A DNA stretch of 64,000 bases from assembly GCF_000217995.1 (NCBI RefSeq), contig NC_015676.1:288103-352102 (forward strand), given 5' to 3'. The position numbers and the translations under genes were made by a program. Every line of letters begins with the position of its first letter. Positions within the stretch are counted from its first letter, which is position 1. The notes beneath the pieces are model-generated. The model ran no database searches, was not told the origin of the DNA, and was given only the letters and a program-made list of their open reading frames with translations. Below are positions 52,444 to 61,599 of the stretch, piece after piece. This DNA is from Methanosalsum zhilinae DSM 4017 (lineage in GTDB: Archaea > Halobacteriota > Methanosarcinia > Methanosarcinales > Methanosarcinaceae).

Positions 52444-53112
52444 ATGAAGATATGGGATTTGATATATGCTCTAATGCCACATTCACTTAACAAGTCGTTC
52501 GTTAAATGGAAATGTGGCCTATGTCGCCAGGATGAACTACTTCAAAAAAGTCGGATTGCCATATATCCCCATACACTTGATGTTAATGAACTGATCACAA
52601 ATGATCTTGACAGGGCAGTTTCATTTCTTCCCTACTGTGCAAAACCAAAAGGTGATTTTGAGTGTCCTTTATGTGATCCTGTCTATGGAAGAAAGGATAG
52701 CAAATGTCTGAAACTGATGAACCATCAATGTAATGTTCCGTGTTCACTTGGCAGCATGGTTGATGTTTTAAAGGGCCATGGTTTTACTCATGACCGGATT
52801 TTCATTATTGATAATGATTCCAACCTGTTTTCATGGCTTGAACAGAAAAAGAACGAAGGCTATAATTATCTGCTGCCAGGTGTCAGCTGCTACTATGGCG
52901 TTGGGTATGCACTGGATTATATCGGAAAAAAGCTTGGTTACAGTGGATGTATTGTTTTTCTTGACGACTACGATTCATGTGATCCGGGAAATGGGATGTG
53001 CAGGGGGCTGGGTGATTATCTGAGCATGGAAAAGTTCGATAAAGGCAAACGCACAAAAATAAATGAGCGATCTATCCAGACCATGGACATGCTTCTTGAT
53101 GGGAAATATTGA
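52444..53112 (+). CDS. DUF116-like cysteine protein, copy 1
   Basis: 222 residues, soluble. The N-terminal part has KCGLCRQDELL; the core has CPLCDPVYGRKDSKCL and CNVPCSLGSMVDVLK, then an alpha/beta region RIFIIDNDSNLFSWLEQKK with LLPGVSCYYGVGYALDYIGKK. The pattern of cysteine pairs followed by a nucleotide-fold-like half resembles the DUF116 family, whose function is unknown. The leader GGTGGGGAATAGTAA precedes the ATG. About 70% identical to the next gene. Confidence 0.75.
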   Translation: MKIWDLIYALMPHSLNKSFVKWKCGLCRQDELLQKSRIAIYPHTLDVNELITNDLDRAVSFLPYCAKPKGDFECPLCDPVYGRKDSKCLKLMNHQCNVPCSLGSMVDVLKGHGFTHDRIFIIDNDSNLFSWLEQKKNEGYNYLLPGVSCYYGVGYALDYIGKKLGYSGCIVFLDDYDSCDPGNGMCRGLGDYLSMEKFDKGKRTKINERSIQTMDMLLDGKY

Positions 53113-53354: not shown

Positions 53355-54116
53355 ATGCTCAAAGAACTATTATATGGGCTCTTACCATATTCTCTAAACA
53401 AATCACTGGTTAACAGAAGATGTGGATTCCACAAACAGGACAAGGTGCTGCAGGAAAGCCGGATAGTCCTGTCGCCCCCGGATTTTGATTTTGGTAGAGT
53501 AGTTTCAAGTGAACTTGACAAATCGGTTTCGTTTCTTCCATACTGTGCAAAGCCCCGGGGTGAGAATGGGTGTCCACTATGTGATCCTGTCCATGGAAGA
53601 AAGGACAGTAAATGCCTGAAGCTCATGGATATGGATTGTCATGTACCCTGTACGCTTGGATCAATGGTTGATATATTGAAGAAACATGGGTTCACCCGAG
53701 ATCGGATATTCATTATAGATAGTGATCCTAATCTCTTTTCATGGTTAAAGGATAAAAAAGAGGAAGGATATAAATACATCATGCCGGGTGTGGCCTGCCA
53801 TTACGGTGTTGGATATGCTCTCAACCATATTTCCAAAAAACTTGGATACAGTGGATGCATTGTTTTTCTTGATGACCATGATCCCAAAGATTCAAAAAAT
53901 GGTGTATGCAGGGGAATATCCGATTATCTAAGCATGGAAAAATATGATAAAGGTAAACTTACCCGAATAACTGAATCATCGATTTCAACCATTGATATGA
54001 TGCTGGCAGGAAACTATAAGTCAGTCAATAATAAAAACAAATCGTATGAGGTATTGAATTATCCTAATTTTGCTCATGATCCATCAGAAAAAACAAAAAA
54101 ACCTGCAGAAAACTGA
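53355..54116 (+). CDS. DUF116-like cysteine protein, copy 2
   Basis: 253 residues, with the same core as copy 1: RRCGFHKQDKVLQ, CPLCDPVHGRKDSKCL, CHVPCTLGSMVDILK and IMPGVACHYGVGYALNHISKK. It differs by a charged C-terminal tail of about 30 residues. The first cysteine pair seen in copy 1 (CGLC) is CGFH here. It has its own promoter region: 241 bases with a TATA-like run and a perfect palindrome, ATGTGTATACACAT, at 53149-53162. AGAGGTGA lies before the ATG. Confidence 0.75.
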   Translation: MLKELLYGLLPYSLNKSLVNRRCGFHKQDKVLQESRIVLSPPDFDFGRVVSSELDKSVSFLPYCAKPRGENGCPLCDPVHGRKDSKCLKLMDMDCHVPCTLGSMVDILKKHGFTRDRIFIIDSDPNLFSWLKDKKEEGYKYIMPGVACHYGVGYALNHISKKLGYSGCIVFLDDHDPKDSKNGVCRGISDYLSMEKYDKGKLTRITESSISTIDMMLAGNYKSVNNKNKSYEVLNYPNFAHDPSEKTKKPAEN

Positions 54117-54468: not shown

Positions 54469-55734
54469 ATGAAAATATGGATAGTTATACTGACATTAAT
54501 GGTAGCATTAATGACAGCTTCATCAGCTGCTGCTATTACAGTTGATGGATATAAATCACCGGGAGAATGGGATGATAACTGGGCTTTTGGTCAGGAAAAT
54601 GCAACTACATATGATCCAAACGGTCCATTTGGTGATCGAATGGTAATACGTCAGGGTGGACTTGATACAGCAGTAACGGATAACTGGTTTGATGTATATC
54701 CCAATGACACAGCTGGACCAACCTTTGATCAGTCCATGGCCACACAGGGTGATTACAGTGGATCTGACATAATGAAAGTTTATGCCAGATATGATCCTGT
54801 AAATGATGTAATGTATGGTATGACCGAGGTTTATGGGATGCCTGGTGACTTGGATGGTAATGAAGATGTTACTGGAGTAGCTCCGGCTGACCAGGCTGGA
54901 GATCCCGGGCCAGCTGCTGGAACACCAGGACATCCATATGGGCTTGGTCCTACAGAGTTCTGGCATATAAATATACAACAGGGTGCAAACTGGGCTTTTG
55001 TTTCAGTAGTAAATAATGACTGGTCCGTTTCTTCAAACGTTGGAATGGATTATGATGATGCTGATGCAAGATTTACTTTTGATCAGTACCGTCTTCCCGG
55101 AGATGAAACGCTTCCAAAATCAGTTTATGAAGTAAGCATGAGTAATTTCAGCACGTTCTTTGATATGAGTCCAGGTGCGACATTTGCAGCTGAAATTATG
55201 GCAGGTTCATCTGCTGATATTGTAGGTGAGGAAATTGTATCGGTATTCTTTGAGGTCCCCGAACCAGACATTGAACTTATAAAATATGTAAGTGGGGATA
55301 ATGTTACATGGCACGATGCAAATACACCTGCAGCAGGTCCTCTTCTGGATACAGGTCAGGATGTCTACTGGAAGTATGTAATCACCAACACAGGCAATGA
55401 ACCACTGGTTAACGTTATGTTAACTGATGATCAGCTTGGCAACATAACATGTCCACAGGATACTCTTGCAATAGGTGAGAGCATGGAATGCTTTGCACAG
55501 GGAACAGTGCCTGAGGTGTGCCAGCCACCCTATTATTACAAGAATGTAGGAACGGTTGATGCTATAGGAATGGCATCCGGTATACCCGTAACAGACAATG
55601 ATCCTGCACACTACAGATGTAAAGACATACCACACAATGGTAACGATGTGCCTGTTATGACTCCTGCAGGACTTGTTGGACTTGTGGCAATGCTTGGAAT
55701 AATTGGAATTGTTTCCATGAGAAGGAAAGATTAA
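54469..55734 (+). CDS. Secreted protein with VPxxxP-CTERM sorting tail, short form
   Basis: 421 residues. The signal peptide is VILTLMVALMTASSAAA. A novel-looking N-terminal domain of about 250 residues opens VDGYKSPGEWDDNW (the ExW theme recalls CBM9/DOMON-like sugar-binding domains, weakly) and ends SADIVGEEIVSVFFEVP. One DUF11-like domain follows (about 265-385). The C-terminus is VPVMTP (394-399), a hydrophobic helix and RRKD: exactly the VPxxxP tripartite tail recognised by archaeosortase B. The sortase gene starts 69 bases downstream. Its N-terminal domain is nearly identical to that of the protein at 58438-61599. Confidence 0.9.
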   Translation: MKIWIVILTLMVALMTASSAAAITVDGYKSPGEWDDNWAFGQENATTYDPNGPFGDRMVIRQGGLDTAVTDNWFDVYPNDTAGPTFDQSMATQGDYSGSDIMKVYARYDPVNDVMYGMTEVYGMPGDLDGNEDVTGVAPADQAGDPGPAAGTPGHPYGLGPTEFWHINIQQGANWAFVSVVNNDWSVSSNVGMDYDDADARFTFDQYRLPGDETLPKSVYEVSMSNFSTFFDMSPGATFAAEIMAGSSADIVGEEIVSVFFEVPEPDIELIKYVSGDNVTWHDANTPAAGPLLDTGQDVYWKYVITNTGNEPLVNVMLTDDQLGNITCPQDTLAIGESMECFAQGTVPEVCQPPYYYKNVGTVDAIGMASGIPVTDNDPAHYRCKDIPHNGNDVPVMTPAGLVGLVAMLGIIGIVSMRRKD

Positions 55735-55802
55735 TTCTAATTTTTCCTACTTTTTTATATAGGCGAAGGTGAATATTTAAAGTGGGTATTTGGTGATTAT
55801 TA

Positions 55803-56363
55803 ATGGGGAAAAAACGTACAAAAAAACAAGCATCTAAAAAAAATACTGAACTAACTCTTAAAGACAAATTAGTGAATGTATTTGAGGATAATAAAGGTAT
55901 AATTCGCTTTGCAGGATTGTATCTTCTGTATATTGCTATTTTAACTCTTGTTTATATCACAGTAAAAGACGATCTTCAGTTTATGAGGGACTGGACTGCA
56001 AATGGCCTTGCAGTTATTCTGAATCTGCTTGGAGTTGAGAACTCTCATATGGGCTCCTACGTGTATCTGGAGAACCTTTCTCTGAGAGTCATTGATGAAT
56101 GCACGGGTATCTATGAGATCCTTGTATATTCAAGCTGTGTTCTTGCATATTCCACCACTTACGCCAAAAAAGCTATCGGTATTGCATTTGGAATACCTGC
56201 AATCCTTGGAATAAATATGATCCGGCTGGTTTCACTGTCATTAGTGGGGATCTGGAGTCCGGAATTGTTTGATTATGTTCATTACTATCTCTGGCAGATA
56301 ACACTTCTGATTATCATTGCAATTGTAGTGATTGTATGGATTGAAAAGGTGGTTAAGAAATGA
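55803..56363 (+). CDS. artB: Archaeosortase, ArtB type (VPxxxP-CTERM specific)
   Basis: 186 residues, integral membrane protein with a basic N-terminus and about five membrane helices. The exosortase/archaeosortase catalytic residues are in place: Cys100 in IDECTGIYEILVY, Arg141 in GINMIRLVSLS, and His160 in FDYVHYYLWQ. The family cuts a C-terminal sorting tail and joins the target to a lipid or other anchor. Both flanking secreted proteins carry the VPxxxP tail that defines ArtB targets, which makes the subtype assignment strong. It overlaps the next gene by four bases (ATGA). Confidence 0.93.
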   Translation: MGKKRTKKQASKKNTELTLKDKLVNVFEDNKGIIRFAGLYLLYIAILTLVYITVKDDLQFMRDWTANGLAVILNLLGVENSHMGSYVYLENLSLRVIDECTGIYEILVYSSCVLAYSTTYAKKAIGIAFGIPAILGINMIRLVSLSLVGIWSPELFDYVHYYLWQITLLIIIAIVVIVWIEKVVKK

Positions 56364-56743
56364 GAATCTCTGTATTTTTTGGTAAATTCTTATTATATCT
56401 GACAGTCCTGTTCATAATTGCATTGCCAGGAGTGATAAATCACTTTGAATCGGGGGACACATCACTTTCAGCTTTTAGCTTTCTGACATTCTATCTTCCA
56501 ATGAATCTTGTTCCTTTTATTGCACTGGTGCTTGCTACACCTGTTGAAAATAACCTCCGGCTGAAATATATTATTGGAGGTTCTGCAATAATTTGTGTGT
56601 TCACTCTACTGATAATAGGCTTCCAGTTTACTTTTGTTTCTGTTGCAGGTGAACTATTCTACTTCTATGCAATTGGAAGGGTGGCTTTTCCATTTGTTCT
56701 GTGGTTTGTGCTGATGAATCGCCATATGAATTTTAACTTTTAA
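56360..56743 (+). CDS. Archaeosortase-associated membrane protein
   Basis: 127 residues with four predicted membrane helices (LLYLTVLFIIALPGVI, FLTFYLPMNLVPFIALVLA, YIIGGSAIICVFTLLIIGF and a last one ending FVLWFVLM). No catalytic motif is seen. The four-base overlap with artB means coupled translation and points to a subunit or accessory role in sorting. I do not recognise a named family. Confidence 0.8.
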   Translation: MRISVFFGKFLLYLTVLFIIALPGVINHFESGDTSLSAFSFLTFYLPMNLVPFIALVLATPVENNLRLKYIIGGSAIICVFTLLIIGFQFTFVSVAGELFYFYAIGRVAFPFVLWFVLMNRHMNFNF

Positions 56744-56823
56744 GGTAAAAGCTTCGTCTTTATGGAATATATTTATAGAGTACTATCTTTTATATTTATC
56801 TAAATATATAAAAAAAGTATATT

Positions 56824-56904
56824 CTGATAACTTCACAGATTAGAGAGATATGTCATAATTGAGGGGATGAATGGTCTCATCCTTTGTAATCGTGAAGTTA
56901 TCAG
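56824..56904 (-). mobile_element. MITE-like palindromic element, copy B (inverted)
   Basis: 81 bases with 13-base perfect terminal repeats CTGATAACTTCAC / GTGAAGTTATCAG and the inner hairpin GGATGA/TCATCC. In reverse complement it aligns with copy A end to end, differing by a few substitutions and one-to-two-base gaps. Confidence 0.75.
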
Positions 56905-57212
56905 TATTCCCCCGTTCCCACAACACTTACAATACTTTCTATGAGATTGATTTTTTAAATAATAATATGAATGAGAGTTTCATAACATTCATTCGAAAAA
57001 CAGATAAGTAATTTAGTTACATACTGTAATAATTTTTTAATATTTCGTTTAATTATTTGTTTAGACCTGCTTATAGTTAGTATCTTCTTACATGCTGCGT
57101 GATGAAGATTATCCAGTTAATAGGATTTTTCCTGGCGTATAAATCAAAGGAAAATAGTTCATATGAAAATGTTAGATCGAAAATAGGTAAATTTAAAAGG
57201 GGTTGTAATTAT

Positions 57213-57304
57213 TGGATACTTCACAGAACAATTAGATATGAAAATATTGCATGATAGATCTAAAATGCAATTTGTTACCCCTTTAAATTTCTGTGAAGTA
57301 TCCA
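57213..57304 (-). repeat. Related inverted-repeat element C
   Basis: 92 bases bounded by TGGATACTTCACAGAA / TTCTGTGAAGTATCCA (16 perfect bases). The ends share ACTTCAC with elements A and B. A second inverted repeat extends outward: AAATTTAAAAGGGG (about 57189-57202) matches CCCCTTTAAATTT inside the right end (about 57278-57290). Confidence 0.6.
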
Positions 57305-57470
57305 GATCAGGTCCCACTCCCCAACCCTTTACAATTATAATTACATTATAAATGCTTAAATAGAGATAAGAAACAATTTTCTGGACAAAAGTTTCCCTGC
57401 AATTGTACTTAAAAACAATTAGTATGGCTTTTTATCAACTATCTGGAATTCACTGGTAGAGTTAATTATT

Positions 57471-57845
57471 TTACAGGATATTGTCAAAAAACAGAACTCC
57501 AAGGCTGTAAAAATCTGGAAGTCCTATTATTACGAACATATTGTTGCATATTATAACAATTCCCATGACTGCTATTATGTTCCTGGTTGCACTCCATAGG
57601 CTTTCCAGCCTTTTATTTTTACACTCAATATATACCCTGTATAAAAGTATCAAAAATAGCAGCTTTACCATAAGCAGTGAAATAAATCCTGCTGACTCTA
57701 GCAAATGGGCCATAACAGGATTTCCTTCATAACCAAGCCCTGCACTGATAGCTACATATGTAGTCAGAAAGTCCAGAACTATAAAAAATATAATGACGTA
57801 TCTGGAATCATACAAAAATGTCCTGACATCTCTCCATTTAACCAT
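57471..57845 (-). CDS. DUF5658-like small membrane protein
   Basis: 124 residues with three to four membrane helices: YVIIFFIVLDFLTTYVAIS, then LGYEGNPVMAHLLESAG with the conserved Asn-Pro, LLMVKLLFLILLYRVYI and a last helix IIAVMGIVIICNNMFVI. This layout fits DUF5658, which has no known function. The ATG follows GCGGGGTTGGGGAA, the same G-rich leader found in geneless copies nearby, and here it clearly drives a gene. Confidence 0.75.
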   Translation of the reverse strand: MVKWRDVRTFLYDSRYVIIFFIVLDFLTTYVAISAGLGYEGNPVMAHLLESAGFISLLMVKLLFLILLYRVYIECKNKRLESLWSATRNIIAVMGIVIICNNMFVIIGLPDFYSLGVLFFDNIL

Positions 57846-58437
57846 TTCCCCAACCCCGCACTATTTTAATACCACATTCAGAAAACATTTAACTGATAGG
57901 AATCACACTGCACTCATCATGTAGTCGATACTCGATATGTTTTCATGATTGTGATATTCGGGTCAGGCCCACTCCCCAACCCGCTATAATTGTATTTACT
58001 TTACAAAAGGCTAAATAAAGATATGAAAAAAAAATCTGAAATTAAGTTCCAGAACTTAGATGCATAATTTATTTATTTGCAAAACCTCAACTGATTTTGA
58101 AAATAAAAAATTCCTGATAAAGTTCTGATTTCATGCAGATTCGATGCTTAACTGGTTTAAATAATATAATTAGAAACAGCCATTCGAACTTCTTTTTCCA
58201 GACTGTTTTATGCTTCTGAATCTTAGTTATAGATAGCAAATAAATTCCCATGATATGGTACAGGAAGGGGGTAACAGACGTTATATCTGCTTGGGCCTGA
58301 TTTTCATGTGAGATGCTATAATTATAAAATAGCTGGTGGAATCAGGTAATCTTCATTTGTACATATAGTTTCAGATTTTTCAATCGGAGTCTGAAATGAA
58401 TTTATGGGGAACATTGATACATGGGGGATGTAAGATA
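57846..58437. other. Intergenic region before the long VPxxxP protein gene
   Basis: 592 AT-rich bases. The left end holds the promoter and leader of the minus-strand membrane protein. A geneless leader copy lies on the minus strand at about 57955-58040 (TATA-rich, then GGGTTGGGGAGTGGGCCTGA). The right end carries GTACAGGAAGGGGGTAACAG (about 58260-58278) and the ribosome-binding run GGGGGATGTAAG before the ATG at 58438. No gene was found. Confidence 0.6.
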
Positions 58438-61400
58438 ATGAATCGAATAAAATCATTAGTATTATTGCTAATTGTAGCAACTCTATTTTCTGCTACTGCA
58501 TGTGCAGCAGGAGCAATAGAAGTTGATGGATATAAATCACCTGGGGAGTGGGATGAGAACTGGGCTTTTGGTCAGGAAAATGCTACTACCTATGATCCAA
58601 ACGGACCATTTGGTGATCGTTTGGTGATGCGTCAGGGAGGACTTCATACAGCAGTGACAGATAACTGGTTTGATGTATATCCCAATGACACAGCCGGACC
58701 AACCTTTGACCAGTCCATGGCTACACTGGGTGACTACAGTGGATCTGACATAATGAGAATTTATGCCAGATATGATCCTGTAAATGATGTAATGTATGGT
58801 ATGTGTGAAGTTTATGGAATTCCCGGTGATGTAGATGGTGATGGTGATGTTACTGGAGTAGCTCCGGCTGACCAGGCTGGAAATCCCGGGCCAGCTGCTG
58901 GAACACCAGGACATCCATATGGACTTGGTCCGACAGAGTTCTGGAGTATTTATTTAGAAAAGAATGATAAATACGCAACAATTTCAATTGTGAATAACGA
59001 TTGGTCAGTTTCTTCTAATACTGCTCTTGATGGGCAGTACGATGAGGTTAGTGCTAGGTTTACTTTTGATGAATATCGTCCGCCGGGGGATACAGAGCTT
59101 CCAAAATCGGTCTATGAGGTAAGCATAAACAACTTCAGCACGTATTTCAATATGACTCCAGGTGACACTTTTGCTGCGCAGATTATGGCAGGCTCATCAG
59201 CTGACGTGGTAGGTGAGGATATTGTATCTGTATTTATTACTCCACCAAATCCTGCTATAGATATTGAAAAATATACCAATGGTATTGATGCCGATGAACC
59301 AACCGGTCCTTTCATTCATGTTGGCGAAAATGTAACCTGGACATATGAGATTACCAATATTGGTGATGTTCCGCTGGATAATGTTGTTGTAATGGATAAT
59401 GTAACAGGGCTTGTTGCAGATATAGATCCTGCAGATGTTCTGTTTCCTGGTGAAACATGGATATTCAATGTAACCGGTGTCGCTGAAGAAGGCCAGTATG
59501 CCAATATGGGTAACGTGACTGCTCTGTATGAAGGATTCCCGGTGTTTGACGAAGATCCCAGTCATTACTTTGGTGCTGCTCCTTCCATTGACATTGAAAA
59601 GTATACCAATGGTATTGATGCCGATGAACCAACCGGTCCTTTCATACCCGTTGGTGAAACTGTTACCTGGACTTACAATGTAACCAATACGGGTAATGTT
59701 GATCTTACCAACGTTACTGTTACTGACAATGTAACTGGTGCTATATTCGATATAGGTGATCTTGCAGCAGGTGAGAGTACTGAAGTTGAAGATACCGGTA
59801 CTGCTCTTGAAGGTCAGTACGCCAATATTGGTAATGTAACTGGAGAATTCGAAGGTATTATTGTTACTGACGAGGATCCCAGTCATTACTTTGGAGCTGC
59901 TCCTTCCATTGACATTGAAAAGTATACCAATGGAGAAGATGCTGATACTCCAACCGGTCCCTTCATACCCGTTGGTGATGAAGTTACCTGGACTTACAAT
60001 GTAACCAATACGGGTAATGTTGATCTTACCAACGTTACTGTTACTGACAATGTAACTGGTGCTATATTCGATATAGGTGATCTTGCAGCAGGTGAGAGTA
60101 CTGAAGTTGAAGATACCGGTACTGCTCTTGAAGGTCAGTACGCCAATATGGGTAATGTAACTGGAGAATTCGAAGGTATTATTGTCACTGACGAGGATCC
60201 CAGTCACTACTTTGGAGCTGCTCCTTCCATTGACATTGAAAAGTATACCAATGGAGAAGATGCTGATACTCCAACCGGTCCCTTCATACCCGTTGGTGAT
60301 GAAGTTACCTGGACTTACAATGTAACCAATACGGGTAATGTTGATCTTACCAACGTTACTGTTACTGACAATGTAACTGGTGCTATATTCGATATAGGTG
60401 ATCTTGCAGCAGGTGAGAGTACTGAAGTTGAAGATACCGGTACTGCTCTTGAAGGTCAGTACGCCAATATTGGTAATGTAACTGGAGAATTTGAAGGTAT
60501 TATTGTTACTGACGAAGATCCCAGTCATTACTTTGGTGCTGCTCCTTCCATTGACATTGAAAAGTATACCAATGGTATTGATGCCGATGAACCAACCGGT
60601 CCTTTCATACCCGTTGGTGATGAAGTTACCTGGACTTACAATGTAACCAATACGGGTAATGTTGATCTTACCAACGTTACTGTTACTGACAATGTAACTG
60701 GTGCTACATTCAATATAGGTGATCTTGCAGCAGGTGAGAGTACTGAAGTTGAAGATACCGGTACTGCTCTTGAAGGTCAGTACGCCAATATTGGTAATGT
60801 AACTGGAGAATTTGAAGGTATTATTGTTACTGACGAGGATCCCAGCCATTACTTTGGAGCTGCTCCTTCCATTGACATTGAAAAGTATACCAATGGTATT
60901 GATGCCGATGAACCAACCGGTCCTTTCATACCCGTTGGTGAAACTGTTACCTGGACTTACAATGTAACCAATACCGGAACTGTTCCATTGAGCAATGTTG
61001 TGGTTACTGACAATGTCACAGGACAGGTGTTCAATATTGGTAACCTTGGAGTGGGTGAGAGTACTGAAGTTGAAGATACCGGTATAGCTGTTGGAGGTCA
61101 GTATGCCAACATGGGTAATGTAACCGGAGAATTCGAAGGTATTATCGTTACTGACGAAGATCCCAGTCACTACTTTGGTGCCGCTCCCTCCATTGATATT
61201 GAGAAACATACCAATGGTGTGGATGCTGATTCACCCCCAGGACCAAGTATTAATGTTGGTGATCCAGTTACCTGGACCTACATTGTGACCAATACCGGAA
61301 CTGTTCCATTGAGCAATGTTGTGGTTACTGACAATGTCACAGGAAAGGTGTTCAATATTGGTAACCTTGGCGTGGGTGAGAGTACCGTAGTTGAAGATAC

Positions 61401-61599
61401 TGGCGTAGCTATTGAAGGTCAGTATGTCAATATGGGTAATGTAACTGGAGAGTACAATGGTATCATTGTCACTGATCAGGATCCAAGTCATTACGTTGGT
61501 ATACCTGAAAAAGATGTACCATCTGCAACACCATTGCTACTTGTGACAGGTGTAGGAATGCTGGTGATGCTGTTTGTAAGAAGGGAGATTGAAAAATAA
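58438..61599 (+). CDS. Secreted seven-repeat protein with VPxxxP-CTERM sorting tail, long form
   Basis: 1053 residues. The signal peptide is IKSLVLLLIVATLFSATACA. The N-terminal domain of about 250 residues (VDGYKSPGEWDENW to SADVVGEDIVSVFI) is nearly the same as in the short protein at 54469-55734. Seven DUF11-like domains of 107-110 residues follow, each opening IDIEKYTNGxDAD and closing EDPSHYFGAAPS. The C-terminus is VPSATP (1027-1032), a hydrophobic helix and RREIEK, an ArtB sorting tail. The domain string would hold the N-terminal head far from the membrane. Many NxT/S sites (NVTNTGNV, NVTVTDNVTG) allow N-glycosylation. The start ATG 58438 follows GGGGGATGTAAG; an ATG at 58396 lacks such a site. 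Confidence 0.92.
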   Translation: MNRIKSLVLLLIVATLFSATACAAGAIEVDGYKSPGEWDENWAFGQENATTYDPNGPFGDRLVMRQGGLHTAVTDNWFDVYPNDTAGPTFDQSMATLGDYSGSDIMRIYARYDPVNDVMYGMCEVYGIPGDVDGDGDVTGVAPADQAGNPGPAAGTPGHPYGLGPTEFWSIYLEKNDKYATISIVNNDWSVSSNTALDGQYDEVSARFTFDEYRPPGDTELPKSVYEVSINNFSTYFNMTPGDTFAAQIMAGSSADVVGEDIVSVFITPPNPAIDIEKYTNGIDADEPTGPFIHVGENVTWTYEITNIGDVPLDNVVVMDNVTGLVADIDPADVLFPGETWIFNVTGVAEEGQYANMGNVTALYEGFPVFDEDPSHYFGAAPSIDIEKYTNGIDADEPTGPFIPVGETVTWTYNVTNTGNVDLTNVTVTDNVTGAIFDIGDLAAGESTEVEDTGTALEGQYANIGNVTGEFEGIIVTDEDPSHYFGAAPSIDIEKYTNGEDADTPTGPFIPVGDEVTWTYNVTNTGNVDLTNVTVTDNVTGAIFDIGDLAAGESTEVEDTGTALEGQYANMGNVTGEFEGIIVTDEDPSHYFGAAPSIDIEKYTNGEDADTPTGPFIPVGDEVTWTYNVTNTGNVDLTNVTVTDNVTGAIFDIGDLAAGESTEVEDTGTALEGQYANIGNVTGEFEGIIVTDEDPSHYFGAAPSIDIEKYTNGIDADEPTGPFIPVGDEVTWTYNVTNTGNVDLTNVTVTDNVTGATFNIGDLAAGESTEVEDTGTALEGQYANIGNVTGEFEGIIVTDEDPSHYFGAAPSIDIEKYTNGIDADEPTGPFIPVGETVTWTYNVTNTGTVPLSNVVVTDNVTGQVFNIGNLGVGESTEVEDTGIAVGGQYANMGNVTGEFEGIIVTDEDPSHYFGAAPSIDIEKHTNGVDADSPPGPSINVGDPVTWTYIVTNTGTVPLSNVVVTDNVTGKVFNIGNLGVGESTVVEDTGVAIEGQYVNMGNVTGEYNGIIVTDQDPSHYVGIPEKDVPSATPLLLVTGVGMLVMLFVRREIEK
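59257..61512 (+). repeat. Seven tandem 321-base coding repeats
   Basis: Unit starts are at 59257, 59587, 59908, 60229, 60550, 60871 and 61192; the first unit is 330 bases and the rest are exactly 321. Units two to five are nearly identical in DNA over most of their length. The first and last are diverged, the usual sign of expansion from the middle. Because of this uniformity the minus strand also stays open for about 670 codons; that frame is an artefact of the repeat. Confidence 0.95.

Follow-up and report, generated by a model that had tools for sequence, protein, structure and literature searches.

Archaeosortases and exosortases are usually regarded as single enzymes, each defined by its tail, and for ArtA, the enzyme of the PGF-CTERM system of Haloferax volcanii, we know of no small partner. 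Activity of the Haloferax ArtA requires Cys173, Arg214 and Arg253 (PMC9263693), and substrate cleavage needs PssA and PssD, the loss of PssA abolishing lipid attachment (PMC7157517). ArtB and the VPxxxP tail are already known as families (archaeosortase B, TIGR04144; VPXXXP-CTERM, TIGR04143) and are named in the literature, although the enzyme itself was not the subject of any study found, and experimental work on any ArtB, or on the branch that it forms with exosortase H, did not appear in a literature search from which most subscription journals were absent. In bacteria, exosortase H (XrtH, TIGR04177) is described together with IPTL-CTERM (TIGR04174) and the XrtH-associated membrane protein, XrtH_assoc (NF041730). 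The locus presented here lies in a window of 64,000 nucleotides, the whole stretch of DNA analysed, from Methanosalsum zhilinae DSM 4017 (genome positions 288103-352102), and combines an ArtB with a small membrane protein (hereafter, the partner) and two secreted, tailed proteins. From sequence comparison, it is estimated with a probability of roughly seven in ten that ArtB would act as the catalytic half, and the partner, a probable sortase paralogue, as the non-catalytic half of a two-subunit transpeptidase anchoring VPx[LM]TP proteins to a membrane acceptor.

The archaeosortase B locus of Methanosalsum zhilinae

The artB gene (55803..56363, plus strand, as are the partner and both substrates) encodes 186 residues which match the archaeosortase B model TIGR04144 with 231.3 bits (cut-off 150). 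Its Cys100, Arg141 and His160, the equivalents of Cys173, Arg214 and Arg253 in ArtA, do not vary in an alignment of 14 homologues, and the identification of ArtB by this triad, made in an earlier sequence-only reading of the window, is thereby borne out. The source genome, a single contig of 2.14 Mb, contains two sortase-family genes, artB and artA, the second at genome position 1801720 (L109:1759-3902) and followed by the genes for archaetidylserine decarboxylase and archaetidylserine synthase, an order which is that reported for Methanosarcina. No match to ArtB was found in plasmid sequences, and sequence searches for solved structures related to ArtB or to the partner returned none.

The partner gene (56360..56743) overlaps artB by 4 bases and encodes 127 residues predicted to fold into four helices (pLDDT 84, pTM 0.79), in agreement with the description, in the same reading, of a four-helix membrane protein coupled to ArtB by a four-base overlap. 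Membership of a known Pfam or NCBIfam family was considered and discarded, no match exceeding a cut-off; the overlap, together with the co-occurrence, fusions and profile homology presented below, points to a relative of XrtH_assoc and a candidate pseudo-sortase subunit.

Secreted proteins with VPVMTP and VPSATP tails had been noted on either side of the enzyme and its partner, and both reading frames and both tails are present. The short protein (54469..55734, 421 residues), directly upstream of artB, is composed of a signal peptide, a head domain of about 245 residues (54535..55272, aligned with that of the long protein and with 11 relatives), a single DUF11-like unit (DUF7507, 31.5 bits) and a sorting tail (55648..55731), matched by TIGR04143 over residues 394-421 with 29.9-30.8 bits and reading DVPVMTP-AGLVGLVAMLGIIGIV-SMRRKD. 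The long protein (58438..61599, about 1053 residues) lies about 1.7 kb downstream, past a DUF5658 gene on the other strand, and joins a signal peptide and the same head (58516..59260) to seven DUF11-like units and a tail (61516..61596) reading DVPSATP-LLLVTGVGMLVMLF-VRREIEK, which TIGR04143 matches with 29.5-30 bits over residues 1041-1064 of the frame opening at 58396; the start at 58438 is favoured by the signal peptide and by alignment with a relative (L110). As had been noticed from the sequence, the two proteins share the head and differ mainly in stalk length, the short one having a single DUF7507/DUF11-like unit and the long one seven. Where the heads align they are 77% identical (83.6% in DNA over 714 bp), and the long stalk forms an array of 321-bp tandem units (59547..61499; 6.1 copies, 91% matches, Tandem Repeats Finder). 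Both tails sit at the TIGR04143 cut-off of 30 bits, the short protein scoring 30.8 and the long one 30.0 in a frame-based search, and 26 and 23.8 bits, respectively, when searched as whole proteins. In both cases the motif, a hydrophobic helix and a basic end (RRKD or RREIEK) close a protein with a signal peptide, which is the VPXXXP-CTERM architecture.

The DUF5658 membrane protein gene between the partner and the long substrate (57471-57845, minus strand) is kept in a Methanosalsum relative (L110:1879-2301). Upstream of the cassette, two tandem related genes (52444-53112 and 53355-54116) encode proteins that contain Cys and that neither Pfam nor NCBIfam matches with confidence; in Methanosalsum natronophilum a relative of these (L111:4997-5776) immediately precedes artB.

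Tails, head domains and partners across genomes

Co-occurrence was followed in 238 genomes of the source organism's class, 31 with a full ArtB and 207 without. In a profile search, VPxxxP tails above the cut-off were found in 15 of the 31 and in 3 of the 207, so that such tails are not common without ArtB and their attribution to the ArtB type stands. The three genomes with tails but no ArtB (G106, G130 and G185), all of them drafts, do not refute this association, since in G106 and G130 a head gene is cut off by the contig end, at the place where artB would be expected, and the completeness of G185 is 73%; none was retained as an exception. The Methanolobus tails (VPLLTPVG, VPLLSPVG) fall mostly just below the cut-off, yet on the same proteins, and the curated tail model is therefore narrow. 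On the other hand, the description of the cassette as self-contained does not hold. A third VPxxxP protein, a beta-helix protein of 489 residues with the tail VPTMSP and an equally good TIGR04143 match, is encoded elsewhere in the source genome, and up to 12 such tails per genome were counted in relatives, which implies that one enzyme serves many substrates. In addition, a VPTASS-tailed frame by a transposase-like gene (L107:2668-3231) is probably an interrupted VPxxxP protein, and a remnant in the source genome (L108:1501-2000) has a tail closely like that of the long substrate, which suggests that both are decaying ArtB substrates.

The head domain was strongly matched in 22 genomes, 20 of the 31 with ArtB and 2 of the 207 without it, these two being drafts in which the head is a fragment at a contig end. 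It appears to represent a new surface-protein family, almost confined to archaea with the ArtB system. A Pfam search with the head matched no family and a PDB sequence search gave weak hits alone; the predicted structure is beta-rich and of low confidence (pLDDT 65), and a fold search with this model returned no credible match. In the complete loci of Methanohalophilus, Methanolobus, g9 and g14, a head protein about 400-560 residues long, with VPx[LM]TP at its end, is found directly upstream of artB, and in most of them a longer relative, of up to 2241 residues, adjoins the short one. In Methanosalsum natronophilum, artB has different neighbours and the head genes sit on a separate contig, and the ArtB loci of ANME-2 and GoM-Arc1 carry other VPxLTP proteins instead of the head. 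The domain is not strictly bound to ArtB either, because one Methanohalophilus copy ends in PEF-CTERM, the signal for archaeosortase C, and those of two other genomes lack any recognisable sorting tail. It is proposed that the short head protein beside artB would be a conserved, dedicated substrate and the long-stalked protein a second one.

With the partner profile, 32 genomes were strongly matched, and ArtB is present in 29 of these. Over the whole sample, 29 genomes have both proteins, 2 ArtB only, 3 the partner only and 204 neither (Fisher 1.4e-31, uncorrected for relatedness), and within Methanolobus alone 9 have both, 1 and 1 are discordant and 16 have neither (p 2e-5, uncorrected for shared ancestry); the profile search that the sequence-only reading had put forward as a check on co-occurrence with artB therefore came out in favour of the association, with 5 discordant genomes. 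Four of these are drafts whose contigs stop where the missing gene is expected, as judged from contig coordinates and locus lengths, and the fifth, a Methanohalophilus genome (G107), lacks artB and has a partner that is truncated and contains a stop. The gene lies directly downstream of artB, usually overlapping it, in Methanohalophilus, Methanosalsum, g9, GoM-Arc1 and ANME-2. Such an operon-like layout, and the fact that neighbours often co-occur in related genomes, would also fit a protein that is merely encoded next door, such as a regulator or one with an unrelated envelope function. However, the partner stays with ArtB in Methanolobus and in one g14 genome, where the two are about 11-16 kb apart, one ANME-2 genome joins it to the enzyme in single proteins and its bacterial counterpart adjoins XrtH, all of which makes a neighbour without a role in sorting highly improbable.

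The fusions are of two kinds. One ANME-2 genome encodes three sortase-partner fusion proteins of 389-396 residues (L100, L101 and L102), and in two gammaproteobacteria, Thalassotalea and Motiliproteus, an XrtH-like sortase is fused to a partner-like half, the latter assigned by eye. The ANME-2 fusions also bear a C-terminal, zinc-finger-like segment, CPICGEEKVGIVEHxRxxHG, expected on the cytoplasmic side. Sortase-partner pairs were further seen in metagenome-assembled genomes labelled Caldiserica (L134) and Cloacimonadota (L123), the second of which looks archaeal and may be mis-binned. The earlier suggestion that the partner may be an unrecognised sorting subunit can thus be kept in part: co-occurrence, overlap and fusions argue for a subunit, but its bacterial relative is already catalogued, as NF041730.

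The bacterial counterpart and the origin of the partner

The window's partner scores 13.9 bits against NF041730, below its cut-off of 35 bits, and agrees with that family in profile-level homology and in its place directly downstream of a sortase gene. The XrtH_assoc model was matched weakly by 7 of 10 partners (best E 7.5e-4), and alignment of the partner profile with XrtH_assoc (hhalign) gave E 1.6e-6 and Prob 90 over 125 columns, with a score of 44.4, the best of 30 column shuffles reaching 16.5. The enzymes are clearly related as well, the ArtB and XrtH profiles aligning with E 7e-22 (hhalign). Among 274 gammaproteobacterial genomes, all 7 with XrtH_assoc have an XrtH above the cut-off and 7 of the 8 with XrtH have XrtH_assoc. 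In 6 of 7 loci XrtH_assoc immediately follows XrtH, and in one case it adjoins an IPTL-CTERM protein. Profile homology and identical gene order therefore make the archaeal and bacterial systems part-for-part counterparts. XrtH-like genes below the family cut-off (L246, L247 and L249) are also overlapped downstream by genes for membrane proteins of about 210 residues in which an 'LLHP-LLFSFLLAW'-like motif occurs; pairing of the two genes may therefore extend beyond XrtH.

As regards its origin, the partner is likely a degenerate sortase paralogue, judging from comparisons at the level of families. In profile alignments its helices correspond to the main membrane helices of ArtB, the short form found in Methanosarcinaceae being without the stretch that bears the catalytic Cys in ArtB, and the alignment of the partner family shows no invariant Cys, Arg or His, and hence no catalytic triad. 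The superfamily signature TIGR04178 was not among the matches listed for the partner, which consequently falls outside the superfamily as delimited by signature and catalytic residues. Direct alignment of the ArtB and partner profiles gave E 8.6e-4, and that of merged (archaeal and bacterial) enzyme and partner profiles E 4.4e-6 with a score of 42.2; column shuffles did not exceed 15 and none of 150 block permutations attained 42.2 (best 34.3), although permutations which keep the membrane segments still reach 34, a share of the score being thus attributable to membrane composition. Longer partners together with XrtH_assoc align end to end with the sortase profile (E 4.7e-6), and the pacearchaeosortase model (NF033505) was matched by 3 of 10 partners (best E 2.1e-4), in two cases over almost the full length. 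Against the sortase profile, the best single partners score above every one of 77 multi-helix proteins taken as a sample from the same genome. It is the longer ANME-2 forms alone that rise above the background in this way, the window's own partner scoring 16.1 against a background mean of 14.3, and the pseudo-sortase origin therefore rests on the family profiles. Comparison of the partner fold with the PDB and with BFVD viral models gave weak matches, none of which confirmed the fold.

These data also bear on whether the partner could be a sorting subunit of independent descent, a four-helix protein whose role is to stabilise ArtB or to present the lipid acceptor. Co-occurrence and fusions require no common origin, and the window's partner taken alone is at background against the sortase profile; nevertheless, the merged profiles are co-linear over nearly their whole length (E about 5e-6) and the pacearchaeosortase model picks up three of the partners, and independent descent is accordingly considered unlikely.

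Proposed mechanism and comparison with known systems

From gene identities, catalytic residues, co-occurrence, fusions and profile homologies, which the sequences show directly, we infer a scheme of complex formation, cleavage and lipid attachment. In it, ArtB and the partner would make up a membrane transpeptidase of two subunits, with catalysis falling to ArtB, while the partner, probably a former sortase paralogue deprived of the catalytic Cys, Arg and His, would be non-catalytic. At the membrane, both would jointly recognise secreted proteins by their VPx[LM]TP-helix-basic tail; Cys100 would cut near the motif and the new C-terminus would be passed to a membrane acceptor which, by analogy with ArtA, may be a lipid, archaetidylethanolamine for instance. 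Completion of the enzyme would be the partner's task, which it may achieve by binding either the acceptor or the helix of the tail, and substrates encoded elsewhere in the genome would be served by the same ArtB. Trimming or cleavage by ArtB without lipid attachment, or attachment to a non-lipid, would also be compatible with an artB that has no adjoining lipid-synthesis gene, whereas artA stands beside the archaetidylserine decarboxylase and synthase genes. However, ArtA depends on PssA and PssD for cleavage and on PssA for lipid attachment (PMC7157517), and this genome has both enzymes, so this outcome is rated somewhat unlikely, and a lipid acceptor is preferred. In a wider sense, the chances are about even that ArtB, XrtH and their near relatives function only as heterodimers, an active sortase being paired with a dead paralogue which is kept in archaea and bacteria alike and is fused to the enzyme in separate lineages. 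Should ArtB and XrtH need a dead-sortase subunit, reconstitution of the enzyme alone would fail, and the partner would be the obvious missing piece. Moreover, the system offers a clean experimental unit, made up of one enzyme, one partner and a single dedicated substrate that is short (about 400-560 residues).

A conserved second subunit common to ArtB and XrtH, the enzyme fusions, a likely sortase origin of that subunit and the head family as dedicated substrate appear to be new, no report of them having been found in the literature searched, with most subscription journals outside the search. The closest described system, archaeosortase B / VPXXXP-CTERM, has the same enzyme family, catalytic residues and tail type, and its two models include neither the partner subunit nor the dedicated head-domain substrate. 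The ArtA / PGF-CTERM system belongs to the same superfamily and provides the model for cleavage and lipid attachment, but it differs in its tail and in the lipid enzymes that it needs, and the source genome has it too, with artA beside pssD and pssA. Pacearchaeosortase (NF033505) is a curated sortase-family model matched by some of the partners, which differ in being without conserved catalytic residues. The exosortase H / IPTL-CTERM system with XrtH_assoc presents the same gene order, a related enzyme and a distantly related partner, with IPTL tails resembling VPxLTP; it differs in being bacterial, and the archaeal partner, below the cut-off of the XrtH_assoc model, is shorter in Methanosarcinaceae.
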